From Thermoanaerobaculum sp. (lineage in GTDB: Bacteria > Acidobacteriota > Thermoanaerobaculia > Multivoradales > UBA5704), in the NCBI GenBank assembly GCA_021154885.1, contig JAJKHS010000077.1:62001-126000 (forward strand): a DNA stretch of 64,000 nucleotides, given 5' to 3'. The notes beneath the pieces are model-generated. The model worked only from the letters and a program-made list of their open reading frames with translations, ran no database searches and had not been told where the DNA came from. Numbering within the stretch: the first letter of the stretch is position 1; each line of letters opens with the position of its first letter. Shown here piece by piece: positions 2,734 through 57,061 of this stretch. A program made the position numbers and the translations under genes.

Positions 2734-4251
2734 TCACGTCTTCCGGTGTGGCCGGCGCACCCGGGGAGCGGGCTCGGCGATCGTGATCTCGACGTAGTCC
2801 GGAGTGACGGCGCACTTCTTCTCGAAGCCCTGCCACTCCGCCGCGCCGACGCTGGCGGGCTGCGGGGGGGCGCCCAAATCGGCGCGCAGCACCCGCCCTT
2901 TCGCCTTCTCCTGGAGGCGCTGGAGCAGCGGCGAGAAGGGCATGTCCCAACCCTTGGGATTCCCCCCCTTGGGCTTGTGGGCCATGGCCTCGTCCACCGG
3001 GATCATGGCCACCAGCTCCGGGTCGGTCATCAGCTCCAGTCCCCTGGCCTGAAGGGTGGCATTGTGGCTGGCGTGGTGCCCCACCTTGTAGAGGACGGTG
3101 CGGCGCAGGAGGTCCGAGACGGTGACCGGATTGCCGGGCTCCCCCTCCCGCGGCCACTGGAGGTCGAACCAGGAGAGCCAGTTGCCCACCTGGGCGTCGG
3201 CGGCGAAGAGGAGCACCTTGCCGCTCCCCACCAGCTCGATGGCCAGGGCCAGGCTGGTGTTGTTGGTGTCGCTGTCGAGCTGCAGCCCGAGCTGGCCCGC
3301 CGAGCCCAGCCAGTCGGTGTCGATCCGCCTCCAGGCCAGGTCCTTCTCGCCAGGCTGACCGGCGACGCCGAAGTAGCTCTCCTGATAGAACGAGTCCTGG
3401 CGGGCCGTCTCCACGGGGACCCGGAAGGTCTTGTCGAACGGGAAGCTCAGCTTCTTGAGCTCCTCCTCCTCCGGCGCCAGGGCGGGGCCGGCCTTCGCGG
3501 CCTCCGCGGCGGCCAACGCCGCCACGAAGAAGGAGGTCTCCGGAGCGAGGGCCATCCGCTGCTCGTAGACCTCGCCCGCGCTCGTGGGGTTCGAACGCCG
3601 CAGCAGGGTCTCGTCCCGCGGCGGACCGAGGACGTAGACGCGGACGCCGTCCACTCCGGGCAGCTCCGGCCGGTCGCCAGGGTGCCAGTAGCGCGGCGGG
3701 TTCCCCCGTCCGAGAACGTACGCCATCGCCTGCTGAATGGCCGACGGGCGGCCGTCCGCCCCCAGCTCGCCGAAGAACCCGAGGACCGCTTCGAGGTTTC
3801 CGGCGCCGTCCTCGTCGCCGCCCAGCCGCAGCCCCTGCGCCGCCGCGTGGAGAGCGCGCACCGCACCCTCCCGCCGGGCTCGCAGGCGGTTGGCCGTGGC
3901 GTCGTTCGGGTCCTCCGTCCAGGCCACCCAGACCTGGCCGATCTCGATCTGATCGAAGATCTCCTTCGCCTGCTGGAATCCCGACAGGTGGTCCCAGTGC
4001 TGATGGGTGGCCACCAGCACGTCGATCCGCCCGCCGGTGGCGTCGCGGAGGCTCGCCGCCACCTTCTTCATCTTCGTTGCCGCGTCCTCGGTGCCCAGCA
4101 GGACCCCGCAGTCGATGAGCACGTAGCACGGCCGCTGGCCGGGGCGGGAGGGAAAAGCCAGCAGGAAGCAGTCGCCCAGCCCCTGCCGGTACATGCGCAC
4201 CTTGACGCCCACCGCCGGCGCGGTCATCGGCGCAGTCACGGGATCGGTCAT
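2734..4251 (-). CDS. Metallo-beta-lactamase-fold hydrolase
   Basis: 505 aa. The N-terminal stretch YRQGLGDCFLLAF then YVLIDCG is the opening of ComEC-like MBL proteins. The metal-binding motif THQHWDH follows, with His83, His85, Asp87 and His88. A distal histidine pair is seen in VGHHASHNAT. There is no signal peptide, so it should be cytoplasmic. The ATG at 4249-4251 overlaps the stop of the upstream peptidase gene as ATGA, so translation is probably coupled. MBL proteins of this kind occur in many conflict and processing operons; substrate unknown. It could be a nuclease, phosphodiesterase or peptide-related hydrolase. Confidence 0.85.
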   Translation of the reverse strand: MTDPVTAPMTAPAVGVKVRMYRQGLGDCFLLAFPSRPGQRPCYVLIDCGVLLGTEDAATKMKKVAASLRDATGGRIDVLVATHQHWDHLSGFQQAKEIFDQIEIGQVWVAWTEDPNDATANRLRARREGAVRALHAAAQGLRLGGDEDGAGNLEAVLGFFGELGADGRPSAIQQAMAYVLGRGNPPRYWHPGDRPELPGVDGVRVYVLGPPRDETLLRRSNPTSAGEVYEQRMALAPETSFFVAALAAAEAAKAGPALAPEEEELKKLSFPFDKTFRVPVETARQDSFYQESYFGVAGQPGEKDLAWRRIDTDWLGSAGQLGLQLDSDTNNTSLALAIELVGSGKVLLFAADAQVGNWLSWFDLQWPREGEPGNPVTVSDLLRRTVLYKVGHHASHNATLQARGLELMTDPELVAMIPVDEAMAHKPKGGNPKGWDMPFSPLLQRLQEKAKGRVLRADLGAPPQPASVGAAEWQGFEKKCAVTPDYVEITIAEPAPRVRRPHRKT

Positions 4252-6768: not shown

Positions 6769-7125
6769 GTGCATGATACCGTTGAGCTTTCCGTCTATCT
6801 GATCTGCACGGTCAAACCCGAGGCCGGGGACAGGTGGGTGACTGGCTGCCCCGCGCTGGACCTTTTTTCTCAGGGCGAGACCGAGGAGGAGGCCAAGCGG
6901 TGCCTGGAAGAGGCCATCGGACTCTGGATCGAGGATTGCCTCGAGCGCGGCACGCTCGACGAGGCCTTGCAGGAGGTTGGATTTCACCGGGTCCATGCGG
7001 CAACCATCCGCTCCGGAGACGAGCACGTCAGCGCCTCTCTCCCGCGGGAGACCCCCGATACGTTCTCGGTTCATCTGACGATTCCTGCCTATCAGGCCGC
7101 GGCCCTGCTGCCGGCCCAAGCCTAG
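6769..7125 (+). CDS. hicB: HicB-family antitoxin
   Basis: 118 aa from the GTG at 6769, which has an AGAGGAG site upstream. Residues about 5-65 fit the HicB RNase-H-like partial fold: a beta strand with YLICTV, GDRWVTGCPALDLFSQGET, then an EEAKRCLEEAIGLWIE helix. HicB neutralises the HicA mRNA interferase and usually autoregulates the operon. The gene order here is hicB then hicA, the reverse of the more common order. GC is lower than in flanking core genes, consistent with acquisition. Confidence 0.8.
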   Translation: MHDTVELSVYLICTVKPEAGDRWVTGCPALDLFSQGETEEEAKRCLEEAIGLWIEDCLERGTLDEALQEVGFHRVHAATIRSGDEHVSASLPRETPDTFSVHLTIPAYQAAALLPAQA

Positions 7126-9681: not shown

Positions 9682-11892
9682 CTACGACTCCTGCGTCTTG
9701 TAGAAGCGCTCGCCCTTGCGCGCCATCTCCCGCAGCAGATCCGCCGGGCGCAGGCGCTCGCCGTAGCAGCCGGCGTAGCCTTCGAGCTTGTCCACCACCC
9801 AAGGCAGCCCCTGACGATCCGCTTCGCGCAGCAGGCCGCCGCGGAAGGGGGGGAAGCCGAAGCCGAAGATGACGCCGACGTCGACGTCCGCCGGGTTGGT
9901 GATGATTCCCTCCTCCATGCAGCGGGCGGTCTCGTTGAGCATCTGGAGCCAGCAGCGCTCCACGATCTCCTCGTCGCCGATGGGCGCCTCCCGCCAGCCG
10001 AGCAGGGGGTAGACGGCCTCGTCCACCGGCCGGGTTCCCTTCTTCCCCTTCCCTTCCTCTATATAGAGGTAGAAGCCGCGCTTCGCCTTGCGGCCCAGCC
10101 GGCGGTCGTCGAGCATGCGCTGGAAGACGGGCGGCGGCGCCACCCGCTCGCCGAGCGCCTCGCGCATGATCTCGCCCACATGGGCGCCGACGTCGAGCCC
10201 CACCTCGTCCATCAGGGCGAAGGGACCCACCGGCCAGCCCCAGCGGGTCATGGCCCGATCCACCTGGTCGATGCGCGCGCCGCCGGCCAGCATCCAGGCG
10301 GCCTCGTTGAGCATCGTGCCCAGCACCCGGCTGGTGAAGAAGCCCGGACCGTCGCCCACCACGATCACGGTCTTGCCCATGGTCCGCCCCAGCTCCACCG
10401 TGGTAGCCAGGGTCTCCTCCGACGTTCCAGGGTGGCGGATGACCTCCAGCAGCGGCATCTTCGCCACCGGGCTGAAGAAGTGCATGCCCACCACGTTCTC
10501 CGGCCGGCGGCTCGCCGTCGCCAGCCTGCCGATGGGGATCGACGAAGTATTGGAGGCGAAGATCAGCCCCGGCGGAGCCACGGCCTCGGCCTCGCGGATC
10601 ACCGCCCGCTTGACCTCCAGGTCCTCGAACACGGCCTCGACCACGAGGTCGACCCGCCGCAACGCGTCGTAGTCGGCCGTGGGGAGGATGCGCCCCATGG
10701 CCGCTTTGGCCTCCGCCTCGGTCGAGCGGCGGCGCTTCACGCGCTCGCGGAGCTGCTGCTGGCAGAAGGCGTAGCCGCGGCCCACCGCCGCCAGGTCGCG
10801 GTCCTTGAGGACGATGCGCACCCCCTTCTGAGCCAGCACCTGGGCGATGCCCGCGCCCATGAAGCCGGCGCCGAGGACGCCCACGGTGGCCCCTGGCAGG
10901 GTCGGCCGCGCCTTGCGGCCGAGCTTCGCCGCCCGCGCCTCGACGTCGTTCTTGGTGAAGAAGATGGAAATGAGGTTCTTGGCCGTCTCCGACACCACCA
11001 GCTCGGAGAAGGCGCCGGCCTCGAGGTCGAGCGCCCGGCGCAGGGGGAGCTTCAGCCCCTCGCGGACGACGTCGATGGCCACCAGCGGCGCCGGGTAGTG
11101 GCCGCCGGTCTTGGCCATCACCCCGGCGCGCGCCTTGTCCCAGACGAATTTGCCGCCCAGCGGCGTGCGGGCCAGGAGGTCCCCCGCCCGCGAGGCCAGG
11201 GGCCGCGGCTTCCCCTGCTTCGGCGCGCCCTCCCGCACCAGCCGCTCCGCCGCCGTGCGCAGGTCCGCCGGATGGCAGGTGTCGTCCACCAGCCCCAGGC
11301 GCCGGGCCTTGCGGGCGTCCACCTGTTTGCTGGTGAGGATCAGGTCGAGGGCGTCCGGCACGCCGATCCGGCGGGGGAGCCGCTGGGTGCCGCCGAGGCC
11401 GGGGATCAACCCGAGCTGAACCTCGGGGAAACCCAGTTTCGTCTTGGGATGCTCGGTCGCCACCCGCAGGCGGCAGGCGAGGGCCAGCTCCAGGCCGCCC
11501 CCCAGGCAGACGCCATGGATCGCCGCCACGGTGGGGAACGGCAGCCCGGCCAGGCGCTCCATCAGCTCGTGGCCGCGCTGCAGCAGGGCGATCACCGACT
11601 CCGGGTCCTGGAGGGCCAGCAGCTCTTCCAGGTCGGCGCCGGCGACGAAGGTCTCGGGCTTGCCGGAGTAGATCACCAGCCCCTGGGGCCGCTCGCCTGC
11701 CAGCGCACCCAGCGCACCGATCTGCTCCTCGAACCAGGTCATCAGCCGGCTCGAGAGCGTGTTGACTCGCTTGCCGGGATCGTCCAGGCGCAGCCAGGCG
11801 ATCCCCTCCTCGACGGCCAGGGCGCCCGGAGGCGGGCCGGTCTGAATGATCTGGGCGGTCTTCGCGCGGGTGTCGGCTTCGATGAGGGTCAT
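9682..11892 (-). CDS. fadB: Fatty-acid oxidation complex alpha subunit (enoyl-CoA hydratase / 3-hydroxyacyl-CoA dehydrogenase)
   Basis: 736 aa. The N-terminal ~190 residues are a crotonase domain with FVAGADLEEL and the oxyanion-type stretch IHGVCLGGGLELALACR. The middle has the Rossmann motif GVLGAGFMGAGIA and the dehydrogenase signature HFFSPVAKMPLLEV; the C-terminal repeat domain has GWPVGPFALMDEVGLDVG and KRGFYLY. It catalyses hydration and NAD-dependent oxidation of trans-enoyl-CoA to 3-ketoacyl-CoA. FadB and FadJ cannot be told apart here. I prefer the ATG at 11892 over 11901 (GATGGGG upstream). No thiolase gene is adjacent. Confidence 0.92.
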   Translation of the reverse strand: MTLIEADTRAKTAQIIQTGPPPGALAVEEGIAWLRLDDPGKRVNTLSSRLMTWFEEQIGALGALAGERPQGLVIYSGKPETFVAGADLEELLALQDPESVIALLQRGHELMERLAGLPFPTVAAIHGVCLGGGLELALACRLRVATEHPKTKLGFPEVQLGLIPGLGGTQRLPRRIGVPDALDLILTSKQVDARKARRLGLVDDTCHPADLRTAAERLVREGAPKQGKPRPLASRAGDLLARTPLGGKFVWDKARAGVMAKTGGHYPAPLVAIDVVREGLKLPLRRALDLEAGAFSELVVSETAKNLISIFFTKNDVEARAAKLGRKARPTLPGATVGVLGAGFMGAGIAQVLAQKGVRIVLKDRDLAAVGRGYAFCQQQLRERVKRRRSTEAEAKAAMGRILPTADYDALRRVDLVVEAVFEDLEVKRAVIREAEAVAPPGLIFASNTSSIPIGRLATASRRPENVVGMHFFSPVAKMPLLEVIRHPGTSEETLATTVELGRTMGKTVIVVGDGPGFFTSRVLGTMLNEAAWMLAGGARIDQVDRAMTRWGWPVGPFALMDEVGLDVGAHVGEIMREALGERVAPPPVFQRMLDDRRLGRKAKRGFYLYIEEGKGKKGTRPVDEAVYPLLGWREAPIGDEEIVERCWLQMLNETARCMEEGIITNPADVDVGVIFGFGFPPFRGGLLREADRQGLPWVVDKLEGYAGCYGERLRPADLLREMARKGERFYKTQES

Positions 11893-45641: not shown

Positions 45642-48191
45642 ATGCGTCGACTGCGCCCGCTGATCGTCCTGCCCCTCCTTCTCCTCTCGCTCTGCGCCCT
45701 GTTCCCCGCCGCGTCCAGCGCGGCCGAGAAGCTGAGCCGGGCCGACCGCAAGGCCCAGAGGGAGGCCATCCAGAAGCTGCCCGAGAAATATCGGCAGTGG
45801 CTGAAGGTGGTGGACCTGCTGATCTCCGAAGACGAGCTGAGAACCTTCCTGGCCCTCGACAAGGACTACCAGCGCGACGCCTTCATCCAGCGCTTCTGGG
45901 AGGCTCGCAATCCTTACAAGTCGAGCGCCCGCAACCAGTTCCAGGAGCAATGGGAGGCGCGGGTGGAGCAGGCTCTCACCGAGTTCGGCAGCCTGGATGA
46001 CGAGCGCACCCGCGTCCTGCTGCTCAACGGCCCACCCAACGGCCGCGTCGAGAGCCACTGCTCGAACGTGATCTGGCCCGTGGAGGTCTGGTTCTACGAA
46101 CACGCCGAACGGATCCGCTCGGAAATCATCGTGGTGTTCTATCGCCGCTGGGGCGCCGGGCCGTACCGCCTCTGGAGCGGACTCGACGGCTTGGCAGCCC
46201 TGTTCTCCGGAGGCGCGGGCGACTCCGGAGAGCGGACCCTGAGCACCATCGCCAACAGTTGCCGCAACGGTGACCAGATCGCCGGCGGCATCGGCTGGGT
46301 GCTCAACCAGGGGATGGGGTACGACATGCTCCAGCAGCGGATGACGGCCAAGTCCGAGGAGCGCGCCGCCGAGTGGGTCACCTCGTTCAACTCCTATTCC
46401 ACCGACGTGGCGCCGGGGGCCAAGCTGCTGCCGGCGAAGCTGGCGCTGGAGTATCCCGGTCACTGGCAGGGACGCACGGCGGTGGAGGGCGTGATCACGG
46501 TGCCGGCCTCCGGCGCCGGGCAGTCGGCGCTGGGCGGCGCTCACACGTTCAACATGATCCTCAACGGCGAGGTGCTGCAGAACGGCAGGCTGTTCGAGAA
46601 CTTCCGCTATAAATTCGACTTCCCGGCCGCGACCGCCCCCATGCCCGCGGACTCGCTGCCCGTGGTCTTTCAGCGCTATCTCCGCCCGGGCGACTACCTG
46701 CTGGTGGTGAAGCTGGAGGACCTCAACTCGGGCAAGGTCTTCCGCGACGAGCGCACCATCACGGTGCCGTCCTCGGACAAGGCGGCGCCCGCACCCCTGG
46801 CGGCGGACGCCGACGAGGCCAGCGCCCGCCTGCTGGAGGAGGCCAACCGCGCCATCGCCAACGGCGAGACGACCCTGAAACTGATCCGCCCCTTCGGCGA
46901 GCTGCAGGCGGGCATGCAGCGCTTCGACACCCTGACCACCGGCAAGGACATCGACAAGGTGACCTTCGCTCTCGACGGCAAGGCGCTGCTCACCAAGAGG
47001 AAACCGCCGTTCAGCGTCGAGCTGGACCTGGGGAACCTCCCCCGCCCCCGCACCCTCTCCGCCAAGGCCTACAGCGCCACCGGCGCCGAGCTGGCCTCGG
47101 ACGAGCTGGTGGTCAACTCGGCCCCCAACCGCTTCCAGGTGAAGCTGGTGGAGCCGAAGCGGGGCAAGCGCTACAGCTCCAGCCTGCTGGCCAAGGCCGA
47201 GCCTCAGGCGCCGGATGGCGGGGCGGTGGAGCGGGTGGAGTTCTTCCTCAACGAGACCCGCGTCGCGACCCTCTACCAGCCGCCCTGGGAGCAGGTCATC
47301 GTGCTGCCCAAGGCCGAGACCCTCGGCTACGTGCGCGCCGTGGCCTACCTGCCGGACGGCAACTCGACGGAGAGCCTGGTCTTCGTCAACGCGCCCGAGG
47401 ACATGGCCGAGGTGAACATCAACTTCGTCGAGCTCTACACCTCGGTGCTCGACCACCAGAAGCGGCCGGTGGAGGGGCTGGAGCAGAAGGACTTCGCGGT
47501 GACGGAGGACGGCACCAAGCAGGAGATCTCCCGGTTCGAGCGGGTGACCAACCTGCCGATCCACGCCGCCGTGGCCCTCGACGTCTCGGCCTCCATGGAG
47601 AAGAGTCTGGACAAGGCCCGGCAGGCCGCCCTGGAGTTCTTCCAGCGGACGATCCGGCCCAAGGACCGGGCGTCGGTGATCACCTTCAACGACCACCCCA
47701 ACCTGACGGTGAAGTTCACCAACGACGTCCCCGCCCTGGCCGCGGGCCTCTCCGGCCTCAAGGCCGAGCGCGGCACGGCCCTCTACGACAGCGTCATCTT
47801 CACCCTCTACTACTTCACCGGCATCAAGGGGCAGCGGGCCTTGGTGCTGATCTCCGACGGCAAGGACGAAGGGAGCCGCTTCACCTGGGAGGACGCCCTC
47901 GATTACGCCCGGCGGGCCGGAGTCACCATCTACAGCATCGGTCTTGGGGAGGACGTGGACAAGCGCAAGCTCTCGCGCCTGGCCGAGGAGACGGGAGGGC
48001 GCGCCTTCTTCCTCAAGAACGTGGACGAGCTGGCGGGGATCTACGCCAGCGTCGAGCAGGAGCTGCGCTCGCAGTACCTCATCGGCTATCAATCGACGAA
48101 CACCAGCGGCGGGAACAACTTCCGGAGCGTCGAGCTGAAGGTCGGCAAGCCCGGCCTCGAAGCCAAGACGATCCGGGGGTATTACCCGTGA
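45642..48191 (+). CDS. Secreted GWxTD/VWFA-related protein, paralogue 1
   Basis: 849 aa from the ATG at 45642 (GGAAGGTGA upstream). Signal peptide about 1-28. The N-terminal GWxTD-type domain (about 40-160) has FWEARNPYKSSARNQF and RTRVLLLNGPPNGRVES. The middle holds beta domains with VTFALDGKALLTKRKPPFSVEL and PDGGAVERVEFFLN. The C-terminal VWFA-related acidobacterial domain (about 600-849) has the MIDAS DVSASM, AERGTALYDSVIFTLYYF and LISDGKDEG, ending GLEAKTIRGYYP. Metal-dependent adhesion-type function is inferred. First of three tandem paralogues. Confidence 0.9.
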   Translation: MRRLRPLIVLPLLLLSLCALFPAASSAAEKLSRADRKAQREAIQKLPEKYRQWLKVVDLLISEDELRTFLALDKDYQRDAFIQRFWEARNPYKSSARNQFQEQWEARVEQALTEFGSLDDERTRVLLLNGPPNGRVESHCSNVIWPVEVWFYEHAERIRSEIIVVFYRRWGAGPYRLWSGLDGLAALFSGGAGDSGERTLSTIANSCRNGDQIAGGIGWVLNQGMGYDMLQQRMTAKSEERAAEWVTSFNSYSTDVAPGAKLLPAKLALEYPGHWQGRTAVEGVITVPASGAGQSALGGAHTFNMILNGEVLQNGRLFENFRYKFDFPAATAPMPADSLPVVFQRYLRPGDYLLVVKLEDLNSGKVFRDERTITVPSSDKAAPAPLAADADEASARLLEEANRAIANGETTLKLIRPFGELQAGMQRFDTLTTGKDIDKVTFALDGKALLTKRKPPFSVELDLGNLPRPRTLSAKAYSATGAELASDELVVNSAPNRFQVKLVEPKRGKRYSSSLLAKAEPQAPDGGAVERVEFFLNETRVATLYQPPWEQVIVLPKAETLGYVRAVAYLPDGNSTESLVFVNAPEDMAEVNINFVELYTSVLDHQKRPVEGLEQKDFAVTEDGTKQEISRFERVTNLPIHAAVALDVSASMEKSLDKARQAALEFFQRTIRPKDRASVITFNDHPNLTVKFTNDVPALAAGLSGLKAERGTALYDSVIFTLYYFTGIKGQRALVLISDGKDEGSRFTWEDALDYARRAGVTIYSIGLGEDVDKRKLSRLAEETGGRAFFLKNVDELAGIYASVEQELRSQYLIGYQSTNTSGGNNFRSVELKVGKPGLEAKTIRGYYP

Positions 48192-50923
48192 ATTTTCCTC
48201 TTGCCTGGGACCGCCGGCGTCCCGCCGGCCCTCTAACTCCTGTTTTAGAAAAGAAGCGGAGTAAGCTGCCGGCGGGACGCCGGCGGTCCCAGGCAAGGGT
48301 GATCCTCACCCTCTTTCTCCTCCTCCCCCTCCCGGCCGCCGCCTACCATCCCTACGACCGCAAGGTCTCCCAGCAGGAGCGCGAGACGGTCGCCAAGCTG
48401 GCGGAGAAGTACCAGACCTGGCTGCAGGAGGTCGACGTCCTCCTCACGGAGGAGGAGCGGACGACCTTCCTGGCCCTGGAGAAGGACTATCAGCGCGACT
48501 CCTTCATCGAGAAGTTCTGGCAGGTGCGCGACCCTGTCCACCGCACGGCCTACAACGGCTTCAAGGAGCGCTGGGAGGCCAACGTCAGGCAGGCGCGCGA
48601 GCTCTTCGGCGACATCACGGACGGACGGTCCCGCGTCATGCTCCTGAACGGCGTCCCCGACGAGCGGATCGAGTCCAACTGCTCGCTGATCCTGTGGCCC
48701 GTGGAGGTCTGGTTCTACCCTCCGAACGACAAGATCTGGGAGCCGTTTGCCATCGTCCTCTACCGCAAATGGGGGGCCGGCCCGTTCCGGGTCTGGAACC
48801 CCGGCGAGGGGACGGACGTCCTTTTCGCCTTCAGCGTTCTGGAGAAGGCCGCCACGGTCGGCAGCGGTCTGGGCCCAGGGGTGGCCCGGAAGGGGCAGGA
48901 GCCCGGCAGGGGGGATGGGAGCGATGGGGGAGGAGGCGGCGGGCACAGCCTCGGGGAGATCATGAGCTTCAGCGGCGGCTGCGGCGACTACGACCACGCG
49001 CGCAAGATCCTGGCCGGCATCTCCTGGGTGGGCGGGCAGGGGATGCACTGGGACCTCCTGGAGGCGCGGCTGGTGGGCCGGCAACCGGGCCCCGGCCACG
49101 AATGGGTCTCGACCTTCAACTCCTACTCGACAGACGTGCCCGCGGACGCGCTCCCCCTGCCGGCGAAGGTGGAGGTGAGCTTCCCCGGCCGCTGGCAGGG
49201 ACGCACGATGTTGCAGGGGATGGTCACCGTGCCGGCCAGCGCCGCCGGCCAGGCCGCTCTCGGCGAGGCCCGTTCCTACAATCTCCTGCTGATCGGCGAG
49301 GTGCTGCACGACGGCCGCCTGTTCGACAGCTTCCGCTACAAGTTCGATCTCCCGGCCTCCGCGGCCACCGCGACGCTCCCCCTCGCCTTCGAGCGCCCCC
49401 TGCGGCCGGGCGACTACACGCTGATCGTCAAGGTGGAGGACGTCAACTCCGGCAAGCTCTTCCGCGACGAGCGCGCCCTCGTGGTGCCGGCGACCGAGAC
49501 CCTGGCGCCGGCCGTGGCCGCCGCGGCCGCCACCCCCGAGGCCGTCGAGGTGAACCGCATTCTGGCCGAGGCCGACGCCGCCCTGCGCAGCGGTGAGACG
49601 ACGATCAAGCTCACGCCGCCCCTGGGCCAGCTCCAGACCGGCATGCAGCGCTTCGACACCCTGACCACCGGCAAGAACATCGCCCGCGTCACCTTTCTCC
49701 TCGACGGCAAGCCGGTGCTGACCAAGCAGGCGCCGCCCTACAGTGTGGAGTTGGACCTCGGCAAGGTGCCCCGCACCCACCTGCTCTCCGTCACCGCCTT
49801 CGACGCGGCCGGCGCGGTCCTGTCCGCGGATGAAATTCAGCTCAACTCCGCCGGCAATCGCTTCCGCGTCCACCTCGCCGAGCCGCAGAAGGGGAAGCGC
49901 TACGAGTCCAGCCTTCTCGCCCGGGCCGAGGTCGAGGCCCCCGAGGGCGAGGGGGTCGAGCGGGTGGAGCTCTACCTCAACGAGTCGAAGATCGCCACCC
50001 TCTACCAGCCGCCCTACGTCCACCCCGTGGCCCTCCCCCACGGCGAGCCTATCGCCTATGTGCGGGCCGTGGCCTATCTCGCCGACGGCAGCTCCACCGA
50101 GAACGTGGTCTTCGTCAATGCCCCCGAGAACCTGGAGGAGATGAACGTCGACCTGGTGGAGCTCTACACCACGGTGCTCGACAAGGACGGCCACCCGGTG
50201 ACCTCGGGGCTGGCGGCCAGGGACTTCGGGGTGACCGAGGACGGCGCCCGCCAGCAGATCGTCCGCTGTGACCGCGTCACCGACATGCCGATCCACGCCG
50301 CGGTGGCGATCGACATCTCGGCCTCCATGCAGTCGAGCCTGCCGAAGGCCCAGGAGGCGGCGCTGCGCTTTCTGGAAGGCACGGTCAAGCCGAGAGACCG
50401 GGCGGCCATCATCACCTTCAACGACCACCCGAACCTGGCGGTGAAGTTCACCCGCGACCTCAGGGACCTCGCCGGCGGGCTGGCGGGGCTCAAGGCGGAG
50501 CGCGGCACCGCCCTCTACGACAGCCTGGTCTACTCCTTCTACACCTTCAACGGCCTCAAGGGCCGGCGGGCCCTCCTCCTGCTCTCGGATGGCCGGGACG
50601 AGGGGAGCCGCTTCACCTGGGAAGAATCCCTTGAGTTCGCCCGCCGGGCCGGCGTCACCGTCTATGCCATCGGCCTGGGGGACGACGTGGAAAAGAAGAA
50701 GCTCTCCCGCCTCTCCGAGGAGACCGGCGGCCGGGCCTTCTTCCCCAAGGCGGCCGGCGAGCTGCCCGCCATCTACGCCGCCATCGAGGAGGAGCTGCGC
50801 AGCCAGTACCTCATTGCCTACCAGTCCGCCACCGCCCGCAAGGACCCCGGTTTCCGCAGCGTCGACCTGAAGGTGAGCCGGCCGGGGCTGGAGGCGAAGA
50901 CGATCCGGGGGTATTACCCGTGA
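48188..50923 (+). CDS. Secreted GWxTD/VWFA-related protein, paralogue 2
   Basis: 911 aa if read from the GTG at 48188, which overlaps the previous stop as GTGA. The first 37 codons consist of a palindromic repeat; an alternative GTG at 48299 would start directly at the hydrophobic core VILTLFLLLPLPAAA, but with no basic n-region. The longer form supplies KKRSKLPAGRRRSQAR before that core. Then GWxTD-type domain (FWQVRDPVHRTAYNGF), a Gly-rich insertion (about 238-256, GRGDGSDGGGGGG) not seen in the sisters, and a VWFA-related domain with MIDAS DISASM. Same ending GLEAKTIRGYYP. Confidence 0.85.
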   Translation: MNFPLAWDRRRPAGPLTPVLEKKRSKLPAGRRRSQARVILTLFLLLPLPAAAYHPYDRKVSQQERETVAKLAEKYQTWLQEVDVLLTEEERTTFLALEKDYQRDSFIEKFWQVRDPVHRTAYNGFKERWEANVRQARELFGDITDGRSRVMLLNGVPDERIESNCSLILWPVEVWFYPPNDKIWEPFAIVLYRKWGAGPFRVWNPGEGTDVLFAFSVLEKAATVGSGLGPGVARKGQEPGRGDGSDGGGGGGHSLGEIMSFSGGCGDYDHARKILAGISWVGGQGMHWDLLEARLVGRQPGPGHEWVSTFNSYSTDVPADALPLPAKVEVSFPGRWQGRTMLQGMVTVPASAAGQAALGEARSYNLLLIGEVLHDGRLFDSFRYKFDLPASAATATLPLAFERPLRPGDYTLIVKVEDVNSGKLFRDERALVVPATETLAPAVAAAAATPEAVEVNRILAEADAALRSGETTIKLTPPLGQLQTGMQRFDTLTTGKNIARVTFLLDGKPVLTKQAPPYSVELDLGKVPRTHLLSVTAFDAAGAVLSADEIQLNSAGNRFRVHLAEPQKGKRYESSLLARAEVEAPEGEGVERVELYLNESKIATLYQPPYVHPVALPHGEPIAYVRAVAYLADGSSTENVVFVNAPENLEEMNVDLVELYTTVLDKDGHPVTSGLAARDFGVTEDGARQQIVRCDRVTDMPIHAAVAIDISASMQSSLPKAQEAALRFLEGTVKPRDRAAIITFNDHPNLAVKFTRDLRDLAGGLAGLKAERGTALYDSLVYSFYTFNGLKGRRALLLLSDGRDEGSRFTWEESLEFARRAGVTVYAIGLGDDVEKKKLSRLSEETGGRAFFPKAAGELPAIYAAIEEELRSQYLIAYQSATARKDPGFRSVDLKVSRPGLEAKTIRGYYP
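48200..48297. repeat. 30-bp inverted repeat inside the N-terminus of GWxTD/VWFA paralogue 2
   Basis: Arms 48200-48229 and 48268-48297 are exact reverse complements (CTTGCCTGGGACCGCCGG.. ), with a 38-base spacer. The same unit, half only, is found at 62139-62164. It resembles REP-type palindromes. It lies in frame between the upstream stop and the signal-peptide core. Confidence 0.85.
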
Positions 50924-51067: not shown

Positions 51068-53635
51068 ATGTTCCGCCGATCGCTCCGGCCGCACCTCCTC
51101 GCCCTCTCCCTGCTGTTCGCCGCCGCGGCCGCCACCGCCCAGGCCCCGCCTGCGGACCTCCCGCCGCGGTATCAGAAGTGGCTGGAGGACGTGGCGCTGC
51201 TCATCAGCCCCAAGGAGAAGGCGGTGTTCGTCGGCCTGGGGAAGGACTATCAGCGCGACGCCTTCATCCGCAAGTTCTGGCAGGTGCGGGACCCCTTTCC
51301 CCAGACGCCCCAGAACGAGTTCCAGGAGCGCTGGGAGAAGCGGGTGGAGATCGCCCGCGCGCGCTTCGGCGGCGTGGCGGACGACCGCGCCCGCATGCTG
51401 CTCTTCAACGGCGAGCCCGCCGAGGTCCTCCCCGTCCGCTGCGAAGTGCTGATGCCGCTGGAGATCTGGACCTATTCGAGCACCGAGCGCATCCGCGGCG
51501 GCTTCACCCTGGTGTTCATCGCCTACGGCGCTTCCCGCTACCAGCTCTGGTATCCGAACGACGGCCTTTCGCCCCTGCTCTCCGCCGGCCTGCGGGTGCC
51601 GGTCGACAGTCCGGCCCGGGGCTATCAGGCCATCGGCGAGCTGTGCCCGCGGGGGGAGGACATCGCCTCCCGTCTCGCCGAGGCACTGGACTGGAAACGG
51701 GTGGAGTCCTCCCAGAAGCTCGTCCCCAAGCCGGGCGAGGAGTGGCTCGCCACCTTCTCCTCCTTCTCGACGGACGTCCCCGCGGGGGCCACGACCTTCC
51801 CGGCCCAGGTCGACCTCTCCTTCCCTGGCCGCTCCGGCAGCCGCACGGTGGTGCAGGCCCTGGTGAGCGTGCCGCGGGATGCGATCCAGCCGGAACGCAT
51901 CGAGGGGAGCCCCACGGCTACCTACGTCTTCACCGTCGACGGCGAGGTGCTCCACAAGGAGGAGCTGTTCGAGCATTTCCGCTACCGCTTCGCCCTCCCG
52001 GAGTCCGAGGTGACGGCGGCGAAGATCCCCCTCGTCTTCCAGCGCTTCCTGCGGCCGGGGAGCTACTCGCTGGTGCTGAAGATCGAGGACACGGCGGGCC
52101 GGCACTACTTCCGCGAGGAGCGGGAGCTGGAGGTGCCGGTCGTGACGGCCGCGGAGCCCGCGCCCGTGGCCGCGGCGCCGGCGGCCCCCACACCCGCCAA
52201 CCCGGCTCCGGCAGCCTCCACCCCGGCGGCGGCCTTGGCCGAGGCCAACGCCACCCTGGCCACCACGGCGAATACCGGCGCGGACGAGCAGTCGATCCGC
52301 ATCCTGCCGCCGCCGGCGGGGCTGATCACGGGCAAGGCCCGGGTGGAGGCCATCGCGGCCGGCTCCAGCATCGCCAAGGTGACCTTCGAGCTGGACGGCA
52401 AGCCCGTGCTCACCAAGGGCCGGCCGCCCTACAGTGTCGAGCTGAACCTCGGCGCCCAGCCCCGACTCCACATCCTGCGCGCCCTCGCCCTGGATGGCAC
52501 CGGAAAAAGGCTGGCGGAGGACCAGGTCGAGCTCAACGCCGGTCCCCACCGCTTCGCCATACGGCTCGTCGAGCCGCAGCCCGGCAAGACCTACAACGCG
52601 AGCCTGAGCGCCCAGGCCCAGGTCGACGTGCCGGAGGGGGAGAAGCTGGACCGCGTGGAGCTCTTCCTCAACGACAACCGGGTGGCGACCCTCTACCAGC
52701 CCCCCTTCACCCAGCCGATCCTCCTGCCGCAGAAGAAGGACGTCACCTGGGTGCGCGCCGTGGCCTACCTCGACGACGGCAACTCGACGGAGAGCACGGT
52801 GCTGGTCAACGCGCCGGGCGCGACCGGCCACGTGGACGTCCAGTTCGTGGAGCTCTTCACCTCCGTGGTGGACGGCCGCGGCCATCCCGTCGAGGGCTTG
52901 AAGAAAGAGGACTTCACCGTCGTCGAGGATGGCGCGCCGCAGCAGGTCCGGCGCTTCGAGCTGGTGAAGGACGTGCCCATCTACGCCGGCATCCTCCTCG
53001 ACACCTCGGCCTCCATGAGCGAGGCCGGGAAGCTCGACGAGGCGGTGAAGGGGGCTCTGCGCTTCTTCCAGAAGGTGATCACCCCCAAGGACCGCGCGTC
53101 GGTCATCACCTTCAGCGACCAGCCGAACCTCGCCGTCCGCTTCACCAACGACGAGTCGGTGCTGGCCGGCGGTCTCGCCGGCCTCAAGGCCGACGGCAAC
53201 ACCACCCTCTACGACAGCATCATCTACTCCCTCTACTACTTCGGCGGCATCAAGGGGAAGCGGGCGATCATCCTCCTCTCCGACGGCAAGGACGAGGGGA
53301 GCCACTACAGCTTCAACGACGCCCTGGAGTACGCCCGGCGCAGCGGCGTCTCGATCTACACGGTGGGAATCGAGCTCTCCACCCAGGAGGCGGACGTCCG
53401 CCTCAAGCTCTCCCGCCTGGCGGACGAGACGGGCGGCCGCGTCTTTTTCATCTCGAAGGCCAGCGAGGTCGAGCGGATCTACGACGTCATCCAGAACGAG
53501 CTGCGGTCGCAGTACCTCCTCGCCTACCAGTCCAGCAAGGAGAAGGAGCCGGGCCCGGAGAAGTTCCGCACCGTCGAGGTCAAACTGTCGCGGCCCGGGC
53601 TCGAAGCCAAGACTCTGCGGGGCTACTACCCCTGA
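51068..53635 (+). CDS. Secreted GWxTD/VWFA-related protein, paralogue 3
   Basis: 855 aa, ATG after AGGTAGGATC. Signal peptide about 1-26 (LLFAAAAATAQA). GWxTD-type domain with FWQVRDPFPQTPQNEFQERW and RARMLLFNGEPAEV. Ala/Pro-rich linker about 365-395. Middle beta domains with VTFELDGKPVLTKGRPPYSV. VWFA-related domain about 600-855 with MIDAS DTSASM, TLYDSIIYSLYYFGG and LLSDGKDEGSHY. This copy has LSTQEADVRLKLSRL where the others have a two-residue-shorter loop. Ends GLEAKTLRGYYP. Confidence 0.9.
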   Translation: MFRRSLRPHLLALSLLFAAAAATAQAPPADLPPRYQKWLEDVALLISPKEKAVFVGLGKDYQRDAFIRKFWQVRDPFPQTPQNEFQERWEKRVEIARARFGGVADDRARMLLFNGEPAEVLPVRCEVLMPLEIWTYSSTERIRGGFTLVFIAYGASRYQLWYPNDGLSPLLSAGLRVPVDSPARGYQAIGELCPRGEDIASRLAEALDWKRVESSQKLVPKPGEEWLATFSSFSTDVPAGATTFPAQVDLSFPGRSGSRTVVQALVSVPRDAIQPERIEGSPTATYVFTVDGEVLHKEELFEHFRYRFALPESEVTAAKIPLVFQRFLRPGSYSLVLKIEDTAGRHYFREERELEVPVVTAAEPAPVAAAPAAPTPANPAPAASTPAAALAEANATLATTANTGADEQSIRILPPPAGLITGKARVEAIAAGSSIAKVTFELDGKPVLTKGRPPYSVELNLGAQPRLHILRALALDGTGKRLAEDQVELNAGPHRFAIRLVEPQPGKTYNASLSAQAQVDVPEGEKLDRVELFLNDNRVATLYQPPFTQPILLPQKKDVTWVRAVAYLDDGNSTESTVLVNAPGATGHVDVQFVELFTSVVDGRGHPVEGLKKEDFTVVEDGAPQQVRRFELVKDVPIYAGILLDTSASMSEAGKLDEAVKGALRFFQKVITPKDRASVITFSDQPNLAVRFTNDESVLAGGLAGLKADGNTTLYDSIIYSLYYFGGIKGKRAIILLSDGKDEGSHYSFNDALEYARRSGVSIYTVGIELSTQEADVRLKLSRLADETGGRVFFISKASEVERIYDVIQNELRSQYLLAYQSSKEKEPGPEKFRTVEVKLSRPGLEAKTLRGYYP

Positions 53636-54219
53636 GCGCGCTCCCAGCCTTCATCCTCGCCTCGGGCTCCCCCCGCCGCCGCGAGCTGCTCGCCGGCCTT
53701 GGGCTTCGCTTCACCGTCCGCGCCGTGGACCTCGACGAGACCCCCGGAGCGGGCGAGCCGCCGGAGGAGACCGTCCTCCGTCTCGCCCGCGAGAAGGCCG
53801 CGGCCCGGGCCGAGCCTGGGGAGCTGGTGCTGGGGGCGGACACGGTGGTGGTCGTCGACGGCGAGCTGCTGGGCAAGCCCCGGGACCCGGCCGACGCCCG
53901 GCGCATGCTGGCCCGCATCGCCGGCCGCGAGCACACCGTCCTCACGGGAGTGGCCCTCGAAGAGCCCGGCCGGGATCGCCGCGTATCCGCCCTGGAGCGG
54001 TCGCGGGTGCGCATGGCCGCTCTCACTCCCGAGGAGATCGAGTGGTACGTCTCTACCGGTGAGCCCCTGGACAAGGCCGGCTCCTACGCCGTCCAGGGGA
54101 TCGGCGCCCTGTTCGTGGAAGAGGTCCACGGCAACTACACCAACGTGGTGGGGCTGCCGCTGCCGCTCACCCGCCGGTTGTTCCGGGAGCTGGGGTGGGA
54201 GCTGCTGGGGTTTCGGTAG
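53632..54219 (+). CDS. maf: Maf-family nucleotide pyrophosphatase
   Basis: 195 aa. Motifs: FILASGSPRRRELL at the start, VLGADTVVVVDGELLGKPRD in the middle, and [25 protein letters not shown] near the end. Maf/YhdE enzymes hydrolyse dTTP, UTP or modified NTPs to monophosphates. No ATG, GTG or TTG is in frame before the SGSPRR motif; the likely start is the CTG at 53632, which overlaps the previous stop as CTGA in place of the usual ATGA. The last 285 bases are repeated at 56300-56585. Confidence 0.88.
   Translation: MSALPAFILASGSPRRRELLAGLGLRFTVRAVDLDETPGAGEPPEETVLRLAREKAAARAEPGELVLGADTVVVVDGELLGKPRDPADARRMLARIAGREHTVLTGVALEEPGRDRRVSALERSRVRMAALTPEEIEWYVSTGEPLDKAGSYAVQGIGALFVEEVHGNYTNVVGLPLPLTRRLFRELGWELLGFR
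53935..54219 (+). repeat. Direct repeat, left copy (maf 3' end)
   Basis: Bases 53935-54219 match 56300-56585 with scattered differences and one indel. The final ~110 bases, from GAGCCCCTGGACAAGGC on, are nearly identical in both. The two copies flank the low-GC GHKL-ATPase gene like the ends of an inserted element. Confidence 0.9.
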
Positions 54220-54272
54220 GTTCGTCTCCGGGCAATTATTTCGTCTACTCCAGAGACGATTAAATCTTCCGC

Positions 54273-54302
54273 TTGATTTCTGCCCACGGGGTAGGGCAGA
54301 AT
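54273..54302 (+). promoter_or_regulatory. Probable promoter of the GHKL-ATPase gene
   Basis: TTGATT at 54273-54278 and CAGAAT at 54297-54302, spacer 18. A small inverted repeat TGCCC..GGGCA (54281-54298) lies inside the spacer and could bind a repressor. The start would fall at about 54309, next to the ATG, with no ribosome site. Confidence 0.45.
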
Positions 54303-54309
54303 ACCTCGC

Positions 54310-56292
54310 ATGCCCATGAACTTCAACCTTCCACATCACGTGAGGAACATCACCCTTACTAAGAGTAACGCCCTCCTTCCTCTGTATGAGGCGGTGGTTA
54401 ATTCGTTCCACGCTATCTCGGAACGGCCGGGTGCTGGACGAATTGAAGTAGTTGTGGATCGAGATCGCTCCCAGGCCACCCTTGCACCAACTGGCCCAGA
54501 GCCAATAGAACGTTTCGAGGTTATAGATGATGGTATCGGCTTCACGGAAGAGCATTTGGAGTCTTTTAAGACTGCGAGTTCTTCCAAGAAGGCGCCAGTT
54601 GGAGGAAAGGGTGTAGGTCGTTTCTTGTGGCTCAAGGCCTTCGATCGCGTTAACGTGATCAGCGTCTACCAGGATAAGGACCTATTTTTTGAACGCCGGT
54701 TTACGTTTGAAGCAGATGACCAAGGCGTCCATGCAGAACCACCTGCGCCTACGGACCAATCTGCTCACCGTACGGTGGTCATTCTACAAGGCTTCAAAAA
54801 CCCATATCGGGATAGCGCACGGCACACCTTAGACATTCTCGCGCGCAAAATACTGGGGCATTGCCTAATCTACTTCATGGCGCCGCGTTGTCCGACCGTC
54901 GTCGTACGAGATGAGGCTGATTCAATCAGCCTAAACGATATATTCAACCAAGAAGTGAAATCGCGGTCGAAGCGGCGTCCCTTTTCGGTCAAAGATCACA
55001 CCTTTGAGGTGTCAAATTTTAGTGTTTACAGCAGCGGAGAGCACCTCATTCATCTTTGCGCCGATGAACGCGAGGTGAATTATGTAAAGCTCGTCGAAGC
55101 AATGCCCGAGCTTGCAACCGGAAGATTGCGCGACAACCAAGGTCGGCTGTTCCATATCGCATCATACGTGACTGGCTCCTATCTCGATGACAACGTAAGT
55201 AAAGACAGGACAGATTTCGGCTTTGAGGAGGAGGCTCCACTTTGGGAAAGCCTTCAGAAAAGTGAACTGACCGGTGCGGTCGCGAGGGTCGTTCGCGACG
55301 ACTTCGGCGAAGAGATTGACCACGTCGCCCAAGAGAACATGGCTGGCCTTCGTTCCTTTATTGAGGATAACCCAGAGTTTCGAATTCTAAATTCCCACCC
55401 GGAAGAACTTCGAGGCATTCCAAGTGGCGGCTCCAAAGAGAAGCTGCGCCTAGAACTCTATAAGGCCAAGAATCGTGTCCGTGAAAGCATCAGAGCTCTG
55501 GGGAATGAGTTGCTCGAAAGACAGCCCGATACACTCGATGAGTCTCATGAGTATGAAAGCAGGTTCGTTAGCTTCGTGAGCGAACTCAACGAATTGGGTA
55601 AGTCAGAGCTGGCGAATTACGTCATTCATCGCCGGGTAGTCCTTGATCTGCTTCGGAAAGCTGTACGGCGGACACCAACAGGAAAGTATCAGCTTGAGGA
55701 GGCGGTCCATCGTCTTGTATTCCCTCTTCGGGCTACGTCTGATAGCGTCGAGTTTGAACAGCAGAATTTATGGATTTTGGACGAGCGCTTGGCCTTTCAT
55801 CGCTATCTTGCCTCAGATAAACCACTGAAATCTGTAGAGAACGGAGAATTTGATAGTCTAAAGCGTCCAGATCTCCTGATCTTCAATAAGCCGCATGCAT
55901 TCGCTGAGGATCTTTATCCCATCCAGTCAGTCGTCATGGTCGAGTTCAAGCGCCCGATGCGGAATGATTACAGCGAAGATGAGAATCCCGTTTCACAGGT
56001 TTATGGCTACATACGTGATATCCGCGCCGGCAAAGTAGTCACCTATGACGGGCGGCCAATAGACGTTAAGGAAAGTACTCCATTTCACGTATGGGTGGTG
56101 TGCGACCTGACAAAACGTGCGAGAGATATGGCGGAAGAGTATGGATTTCGAGATACACCAGACGGTGTTGGAATGTTTCATCTTCACCCAAACTTCAATG
56201 CCTACATTGAATTGATTCCGTTCGAGAAGATGGTGGACGATGCCGAGAAACGGAACCGCATTCTCTTTGAGACGCTGAATCTCCCATCATGA
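54310..56292 (+). CDS. GHKL-ATPase fused to a PD-(D/E)XK nuclease domain, candidate defence gene
   Basis: 660 aa. N-terminal GHKL (Hsp90/MutL-type) ATPase: N box with Glu27 and Asn31 ([12 protein letters not shown]), G1 box DDGIGF at 73-78, G2 box GGKGVGRF at 98-105. The middle (about 200-450) is helical with [20 protein letters not shown]. The C-terminal ~130 residues have a PD-(D/E)XK layout: Asp521 in RPDLLIF, Glu545-x-Lys547 in VVMVEFKRP, then [11 protein letters not shown] is about 50 %, far below its neighbours. MORC/MutL-like GHKL ATPases with nuclease domains are known from restriction-type contexts. No partner gene is present, so it may act alone. Confidence 0.8.
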
Positions 56293-56299
56293 GCTGCAG

Positions 56300-56585
56300 A
56301 CCGTCCTCACCGGCGTGGCCCCTCGAAGAGCCCGGCCGGAACCGGCGCACCGCCGCCCTGGAGCGGTCGCGGGTGCGCATGGCCGCGCTGACCGCCGAAG
56401 AGATCGACTGGTACGTCTCTACCGGCGAGCCCCTGGACAAGGCCGGCTCCTACGCCGTCCAGGGGATCGGCGCCCTGTTCGTGGAGGAGGTCCATGGCAA
56501 CTACACCAACGTGGTGGGCCTGCCGCTGCCGCTCACCCGCCGGCTGTTCCGGGAGCTGGGGTGGGAGCTGCTGGGGTTTCGGTAG
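56300..56585 (+). pseudogene. Duplicated maf 3' end, right copy
   Basis: 286 bases matching the last 285 of maf, with one extra C near 56330 that breaks the frame. From there the maf reading frame gives [20 protein letters not shown] to the end ELLGFR and stop. The differences from the left copy are mostly third-position changes (for example GAGGAG/GAAGAG), so the copies diverged under selection in two genomes or over a long time. The start of Maf is missing. Confidence 0.85.
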
Positions 56586-56627
56586 GACGCCCGAGGTCTG
56601 ACCCGCGCAATCAGGGCGTAATTGGGC

Positions 56628-56656
56628 TTGACATGCGGGAGGGTGTCACGTAAGCA
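56628..56656 (+). promoter_or_regulatory. Promoter of the candidate small RNA
   Basis: TTGACA at 56628-56633, 17-base spacer, TAAGCA at 56651-56656. The -35 is perfect and the -10 weak. Expected transcript start about 56663. Confidence 0.5.
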
Positions 56657-56738
56657 TTGCGACCAATGCGGTTCGCCGCAGGTGGATAGCCCCAACGGGC
56701 TAGCGGTGATCGGGCTCCCTTAGGGAGCCCTTTCATTT
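56655..56738 (+). ncRNA. Candidate structured small RNA
   Basis: Between the promoter and a terminator lie consecutive hairpins: GCATTG-CGAC-CAATGC, GCGG-TTCG-CCGC (a stable UUCG tetraloop), AGCCC-CAAC-GGGCT, then the terminator stem. There is no ORF with a ribosome site. If transcription starts near 56663 the first hairpin is only partly included and the RNA is about 75 nt. It does not match any riboswitch or known RNA I recall. It directly follows the right maf copy, so it may be the last part of the inserted element or the start of the old chromosome. Confidence 0.45.
56712..56738 (+). terminator. Rho-independent terminator
   Basis: Stem GGGCTCCC-TTA-GGGAGCCC followed by TTTCATTT. Eight perfect GC-rich pairs and a short loop; a clear intrinsic terminator on the plus strand. 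Confidence 0.8.
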
Positions 56739-56774
56739 CCCCGCGATGCGACGTTTCGGTAGGGGGCCCGAGAC

Positions 56775-57055
56775 CTGCCGCAGGCCTCACGAGATCTCGT
56801 AACGGCCTTGCCAGGCCCGTGCCGGGCATCGAGAATCCCGGAACGGGCTGGCGAAGCCCGTTGCGGGGCCTCACGAAATCTCGTAACGGCCTCGCCAAGC
56901 CCGTTGCGGGCATGGCGAAACCCGAACAGGCTTCGCTAGGCCCAGAGCGGGTTTCGGGAAACACGGACCGGGCTTCGAGAAGCCTGAGGCGGGCATCGAG
57001 AAGCGCGGACCGGGCTTCGCGACGCCCCGAGCAGGCTTCGCGAAGCCTGGACCAG
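56775..57055. repeat. Array of ~13 palindromic 21-bp units
   Basis: Imperfect repeats spaced 21 bases apart, with the core GGCTTCGCGAAGCC (perfect palindrome at about 57032) and variants such as GGCTTCGAGAAGCC and GGTTTCGGGAAACA. The units vary in a few bases each, so the array is old or changing. It lies between the small RNA and the stop of the orphan antitoxin gene. Frames are open because of the period but there is no start or ribosome site. Confidence 0.8.
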
Positions 57056-57061
57056 GACCGT

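Follow-up and report, generated by a model that had tools for sequence, protein, structure and literature searches.

How did a single gene of low GC content come to lie between the maf gene and a second copy of maf's own 3' end, and what does that gene do? We examined this arrangement in a draft genome of Thermoanaerobaculum sp., within a window (the whole stretch of DNA that was analysed) of 64,000 nucleotides. The gene order around the site is a VWFA-type gene, maf, a gene of 660 amino acids, a second maf tail, intergenic DNA and, on the minus strand, an F420-reductase-like gene. The last of these was considered as a conserved downstream anchor for the native tail and rejected, as it does not lie beside maf in the loci of relatives. 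On the upstream side, two tandem paralogous large VWFA-type proteins are encoded (48188-50923 and 51068-53635), and the second is kept beside maf in most relatives examined; the VWFA-maf neighbourhood as such recurs in nearly all of those relatives. The features of the locus, in window positions, are these:

53632-54219, + strand: maf, of the nucleotide pyrophosphatase / septum-formation family; complete, though its start codon is uncertain (Pfam PF02545 Maf, E 1.1e-61)
53931-54219, + strand: left maf tail, read in the maf frame; this is the tail in use (branch 0.048 in the tail tree)
54310-56292, + strand: inserted gene, 660 aa, predicted GHKL+S5 ATPase and PD-(D/E)XK nuclease (motifs in 35 homologues, AlphaFold models, PDB comparisons)
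56289-56292, + strand: ATGA overlap of the inserted gene's stop with the start of a 98-aa ORF (from the ORF list)
56296-56585, + strand: right, displaced copy of the maf tail, carrying near 56319 one base that maf lacks
56625-56738, + strand: putative small RNA with a TTGACA-like box at 56629, hairpins and a Rho-independent-terminator-like stem at 56712-56730 (similarity, fold and alignment)
56753-56777, + strand: third, partial copy (25 bp) of the maf end with the bases that follow it (GTTTCGGTAGG..GCCCGAG..CTG), 21/25 identical

The repeated maf end and the block behind it

The duplicated maf tail around one low-GC gene is real and far beyond chance. As the preliminary description of this DNA had claimed, the terminal 289 bp of maf recur at 56296-56585 with 93% identity, and the two copies flank exactly one gene, an intact one that is the only long ORF between them. 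They differ by 21 substitutions and one inserted base over 290 columns, which agrees with the earlier statement that they are too different for a fresh target duplication. GC content falls from about 0.70-0.76 around the insert to 0.47-0.52 inside it (near 0.51 in the gene) and rises again at the right tail. The inserted base, a C in a run ending near 56319, breaks the maf frame of the right copy as had been described, yet the last 87 maf codons are there in frame with the ATG of the ATGA overlap, and the resulting 98-aa ORF (56289-56585), which contains the last 87 Maf residues, is open. This linkage may be coincidental, since one frameshift in three would give such a frame.

The 25-bp partial copy lies 177 bp after the right tail, and none of 3000 first-order Markov simulations of this region gave such a match. 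Ahead of it is the putative small RNA, which is 92% and 82% identical over 64-75 bp to DNA of the genomes G001 and G003, shares 16 identical bases (GCCGCAGGTGGATAGC) with both, and has a fold z of -3.1. Its counterparts lie at about 1456-1580 of locus L047 and about 1455-1575 of locus L048, and it was found in 3 of 99 genomes. An Rfam search returned no family, and we regard it as a putative, uncatalogued small structured RNA with a terminator. In G001 and G003 it converges on a DUF3800 gene (identified by profile in G001 and by eye, from its matching end, in G003); no such gene lies beside it in the window, and the genome has two elsewhere. The block between the right tail and the 25-bp copy suggests that this end of maf was the site of another insertion. 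Farther on, at 56783-57060, there is an array of imperfect palindromic repeats with a 21-bp period (GGGCTTCGCGAAGCC type), to which this genome has about two dozen further matches, and the congener G002 has a different 21-bp palindromic array upstream of maf (locus L003, about 860-1140).

A member of a known GHKL-nuclease family

The inserted gene is a member of the paraMORC3 / GHKL-Shedu (VcSduA-like) family, which is already known. paraMORC3 was named by Iyer, Abhiman and Aravind in 2008 for proteins with GHKL, S5 and a C-terminal RE-fold nuclease, a subset of which are stand-alone (PMC2292703). VcSduA from Vibrio cholerae, a GHKL-Shedu of type I-D published in 2025, has the same architecture and protects against Drexlerviridae; its E27A and K557A substitutions abolish protection, and about 1.2% of genomes encode a homologue (PMC12137116).

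In the inserted protein, a GHKL+S5 ATPase module (residues ~1-342) is followed by a helical linker and a PD-(D/E)XK nuclease domain (~452-660), in line with the initial proposal of a GHKL ATPase joined to a nuclease. Pfam gave weak HATPase_c matches, below its cut-off. In an alignment of 35 homologues, the GHKL residues E27, N31, D73, G75, G77 and G98/G101/G103 (motifs DxGxG and GxxGxGR) and the E-D-ExK nuclease signature (E463, D521, E545, K547) were all invariant; E27 has the same number as in VcSduA, and the ExK motif is at 545-547. The N-terminal GHKL motifs with S5 and the C-terminal restriction-endonuclease fold with E-D-ExK of paraMORC3 / GHKL-Shedu are both present. The AlphaFold model of the whole protein had a mean pLDDT of 87, and residues 1-342 matched Hsp90, MORC, GyrB and MutL structures with Z of 17-18.6. 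When the C-terminal domain was predicted separately (pLDDT 82), its structural matches were mostly PD-(D/E)XK enzymes, with EndoMS, BspD6I and two Shedu structures (8ti9, Z 7.5, 140 residues, rmsd 4.3; 8ps4, Z 7.3) tied in the top rows at Z 7.3-8.1, close to the level that unrelated models also reach, so the nuclease fold call rests on the motif as well. A comparison with SduA C-terminal domains by hhalign gave E 4e-5 and a probability of 69%. Pfam SduA_C did not match the nuclease domain, the PADLOC 2023 and NCBIfam models gave no useful match to the gene, and a PDB sequence search with the protein returned no relative.

Homologues are widespread but sparse. They were found in 3 of 98 order- and class-level relatives, on 59 plasmids, in one phage record and on 40 viral contigs; an alignment-based scan of species-representative genomes recovered 452 stretches with homologues, and a single-protein query in the same kind of genome-contig scan found nothing. 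These relatives of the gene were seen within prophages, on plasmids and in the neighbourhood of defence genes. Plasmid neighbours include type I RM and Shedu genes (L035), type I RM genes (L042, L043), SIR2, SAVED and RM genes (L036), CBASS-like genes (L037) and HEPN and helicase genes (L040), and the commonest PADLOC neighbours in genome loci, among the matches listed, were type I RM subunits. Such surroundings agree with a defence role and bear out the defence context proposed earlier. By homology to VcSduA, we predict the gene product to be an anti-phage, stand-alone nuclease, in which ATP binding and N-terminal dimerisation would probably gate the C-terminal nuclease and so lead to cutting of invading DNA, judging from VcSduA and the family fold. 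The GHKL-nuclease family, proven anti-phage in Vibrio, extends to lineages far from Vibrio.

We also looked at whether repeats accompany the family elsewhere. A Pontiellaceae MAG (L100) carries a 108-bp hsdS tail (6780-6887) that is repeated at 93.5% identity (10139-10246) after an FRG-domain gene and a GHKL-nuclease gene, with the same shape as at maf. On a viral contig (L174), a lone homologue lies between identical 33-bp direct repeats (1246-1278 and 3367-3399), each a terminator-like hairpin. A Lutibacter homologue (L120, 8001-10019) is part of a gene array with ~130-bp repeats between genes that is integron-cassette-like by appearance, and a partial homologue in L034 (G033:C272) adjoins a frameshifted integrase that is integron-integrase-like by eye. 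The first three of these were suggestive of tail or repeat duplication as a habit of the family, an idea that was rejected, as the rate equals that of control genes: strong direct repeats on both sides within 1.3 kb were found for 3 of 97 family members versus 11 of 351 control genes from the same loci. The repeat structure at maf is a property of this one event and not of the family.

Route of entry at maf

The same-genus genomes G001 and G002 each have one maf and lack the inserted gene, so close relatives do not always carry the gene with two tails; this absence and the low GC uphold the idea of horizontal arrival. The preliminary description had gone on to propose that the maf 3' end serves as a landing site for a single-gene defence cassette, and had suggested looking in related genomes for other cargo between maf and a second tail. 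The comparison gave no support for a landing site in repeated use. In the 58 order-level relatives searched, maf has no second tail. Of 338 genomes of the phylum in which a maf tail was detected, only this one has a second tail beside maf, and none has other cargo at the maf end. Two maf-tail matches were found only here and in G362, where they look like separate Maf paralogues because they are on two contigs, at 39-42% identity and in longer open frames. A lone double tail among 338 genomes argues that maf 3' ends are not a common landing site. The insert, with its single long ORF between the tails, contains no integrase, transposase or other recombinase gene and shows no attachment-like arms, and flanking repeats are no commoner around the family than around control genes; a cassette with its own mobility is likewise unsupported.

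The divergence of the two tails bears on where each came from. Fifteen of the 21 substitutions are at third codon positions, and over 87 codons dN and dS were 0.032 and 0.19 (NG86) or 0.023 and 0.40 (YN00). When the right copy was simulated as free of selection throughout, 9.5 amino-acid changes were expected for an equal number of substitutions versus 5 seen (P=0.02), and in the tail tree the right branch (0.027) is shorter than the left (0.048); both tests draw on some 20 substitutions spread over 261-290 bp. The phylogeny suggested at the outset for the two tails was partly informative: the copies come out as sisters, with no excess length on the right branch, but the support for the fork that unites them is low (80/39). 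As a guide to which tail is native, polarisation against G001 divided the sites 9 versus 11, with about 5 nonsynonymous and 4 synonymous changes on the right side, and other outgroups gave mixed results. Some of the changes may have arisen later, as the right copy decayed. Taken together, the mostly synonymous changes, the simulation and the shorter right branch indicate that the right copy probably spent most of its separate history in a working maf, which makes a tail from a close relative more likely than an in-situ duplication. The left copy, in frame, differs from the right as one allele from another, consistent with the earlier suggestion that maf was restored by a different tail.

Our best explanation, which we put at a probability of roughly 55%, is that the GHKL-Shedu defence gene came on DNA of a close relative, beside a maf tail, and entered by homologous pairing at maf, leaving the old tail behind. 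The gene would have sat next to a maf tail in that relative, and homologous recombination would have paired the arriving DNA with the maf already present. At the other end of that DNA, a join without homology would have formed inside maf, as in homology-facilitated illegitimate recombination; alternatively, the DNA may have been circular and entered by a single crossover within the tail. Either way, maf would be left with an exchanged, working tail, and the displaced tail would persist to the right of the insert as a scar; one homologous anchor with one non-homologous join, or a single crossover of a circle, gives exactly the observed order. The right junction has only 3-4 shared bases (GAGC), which is consistent with, and not diagnostic of, illegitimate joining. 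A donor genome with both a maf tail and the inserted gene was not found, and we hold the route with moderate confidence. An event of this kind would be a clear example of a stand-alone defence gene entering a chromosome without transposase or integrase, with a readable scar and the host gene intact. Scars of this type around other defence genes, if found, would account for the spread of single-gene systems that lack mobility functions.

Insertion with a long target duplication is an unlikely alternative, in which the gene jumped into the maf 3' end, about 290 bp of target were doubled and the copies diverged later. It would produce the same shape, a defence gene between long direct repeats of its target, as is also seen at the Pontiellaceae hsdS locus, and the maf tail is single in relatives without the insert (the 58 order-level relatives, G001 and G002). 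Such a pattern is often linked with RM genes and has been proposed for RM genes in Helicobacter, according to PMC1643837 and PMC3031569, which describe the work of Nobusato et al. 2000. However, copies made in this way would be expected to be identical at first, with constraint then lost on the right one, whereas the divergence seen is allele-like, mostly synonymous and without a longer right branch; the lack of enrichment of flanking repeats around the family also speaks against it.

It is rather doubtful that a site-specific element or satellite recombined at the maf 3' end and brought a replacement tail, its integrase being lost or acting in trans. Phage 21 and e14 integrate in icd in this manner, bringing a diverged replacement 3' tail, and the diverged, mostly synonymous tails at maf would fit, as would the homologues that adjoin integrase-like genes or sit in cassette-like arrays. 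What keeps this reading alive is the second mark at the maf end, the one such fact: the gene and the small-RNA block both follow the GTTTCGGTAGG sequence, apparently as two events at one maf end. Against it stand the missing integrase and attachment-like arms, the same site being unoccupied in the other genomes with a maf tail, and a right border that is the stop codon itself. Moreover, the phage, plasmid and viral sets searched for maf tails held only distant ones (<60% identity).

An assembly artefact, a chimeric join of the maf loci of two strains, is improbable: the assembly is a draft of 161 contigs and strain mixing would yield two allele-like tails, but both junctions would have to be chimeric, one of them exactly at the stop codon, on a 198 kb contig with contamination of 1.67%. 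Very improbable is a minimal mobile unit that lacks a recombinase of its own and carries a defence gene together with a replacement for the tail of its target, sparing the host gene; it would have hit the maf end twice, with the nuclease gene and, before or after it, the small-RNA block.

Comparison with known systems

The inserted gene and the insertion scar are both of known kinds. Homology-facilitated illegitimate recombination, one of the two routes that we favour, has been proposed for the T6SS immunity-gene arrays of Vibrio cholerae (PMC5361080). Those arrays would share with the maf locus one homologous anchor, one non-homologous join and an old 3' part downstream of new cargo; they differ in that at maf the tail belongs to a housekeeping gene and there is a single cargo gene with a single displaced fragment. 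The RM insertions with long target duplication are alike in that long direct repeats of the end of a chromosomal gene enclose a defence-type gene, but the repeats at maf differ like separate alleles and not like a decayed duplicate. With phage 21 and e14 at icd, the likeness is that a protein-coding gene receives a diverged replacement 3' tail, whereas at maf there is no integrase, no prophage and one gene only. VcSduA and paraMORC3 resemble the inserted gene in the N-terminal GHKL+S5, the C-terminal PD-(D/E)XK with E-D-ExK, the stand-alone state or defence surroundings and the sporadic distribution; a point of difference is that the nuclease here is missed by Pfam SduA_C, and the likeness to VcSduA drawn here is one of architecture and residue numbers.
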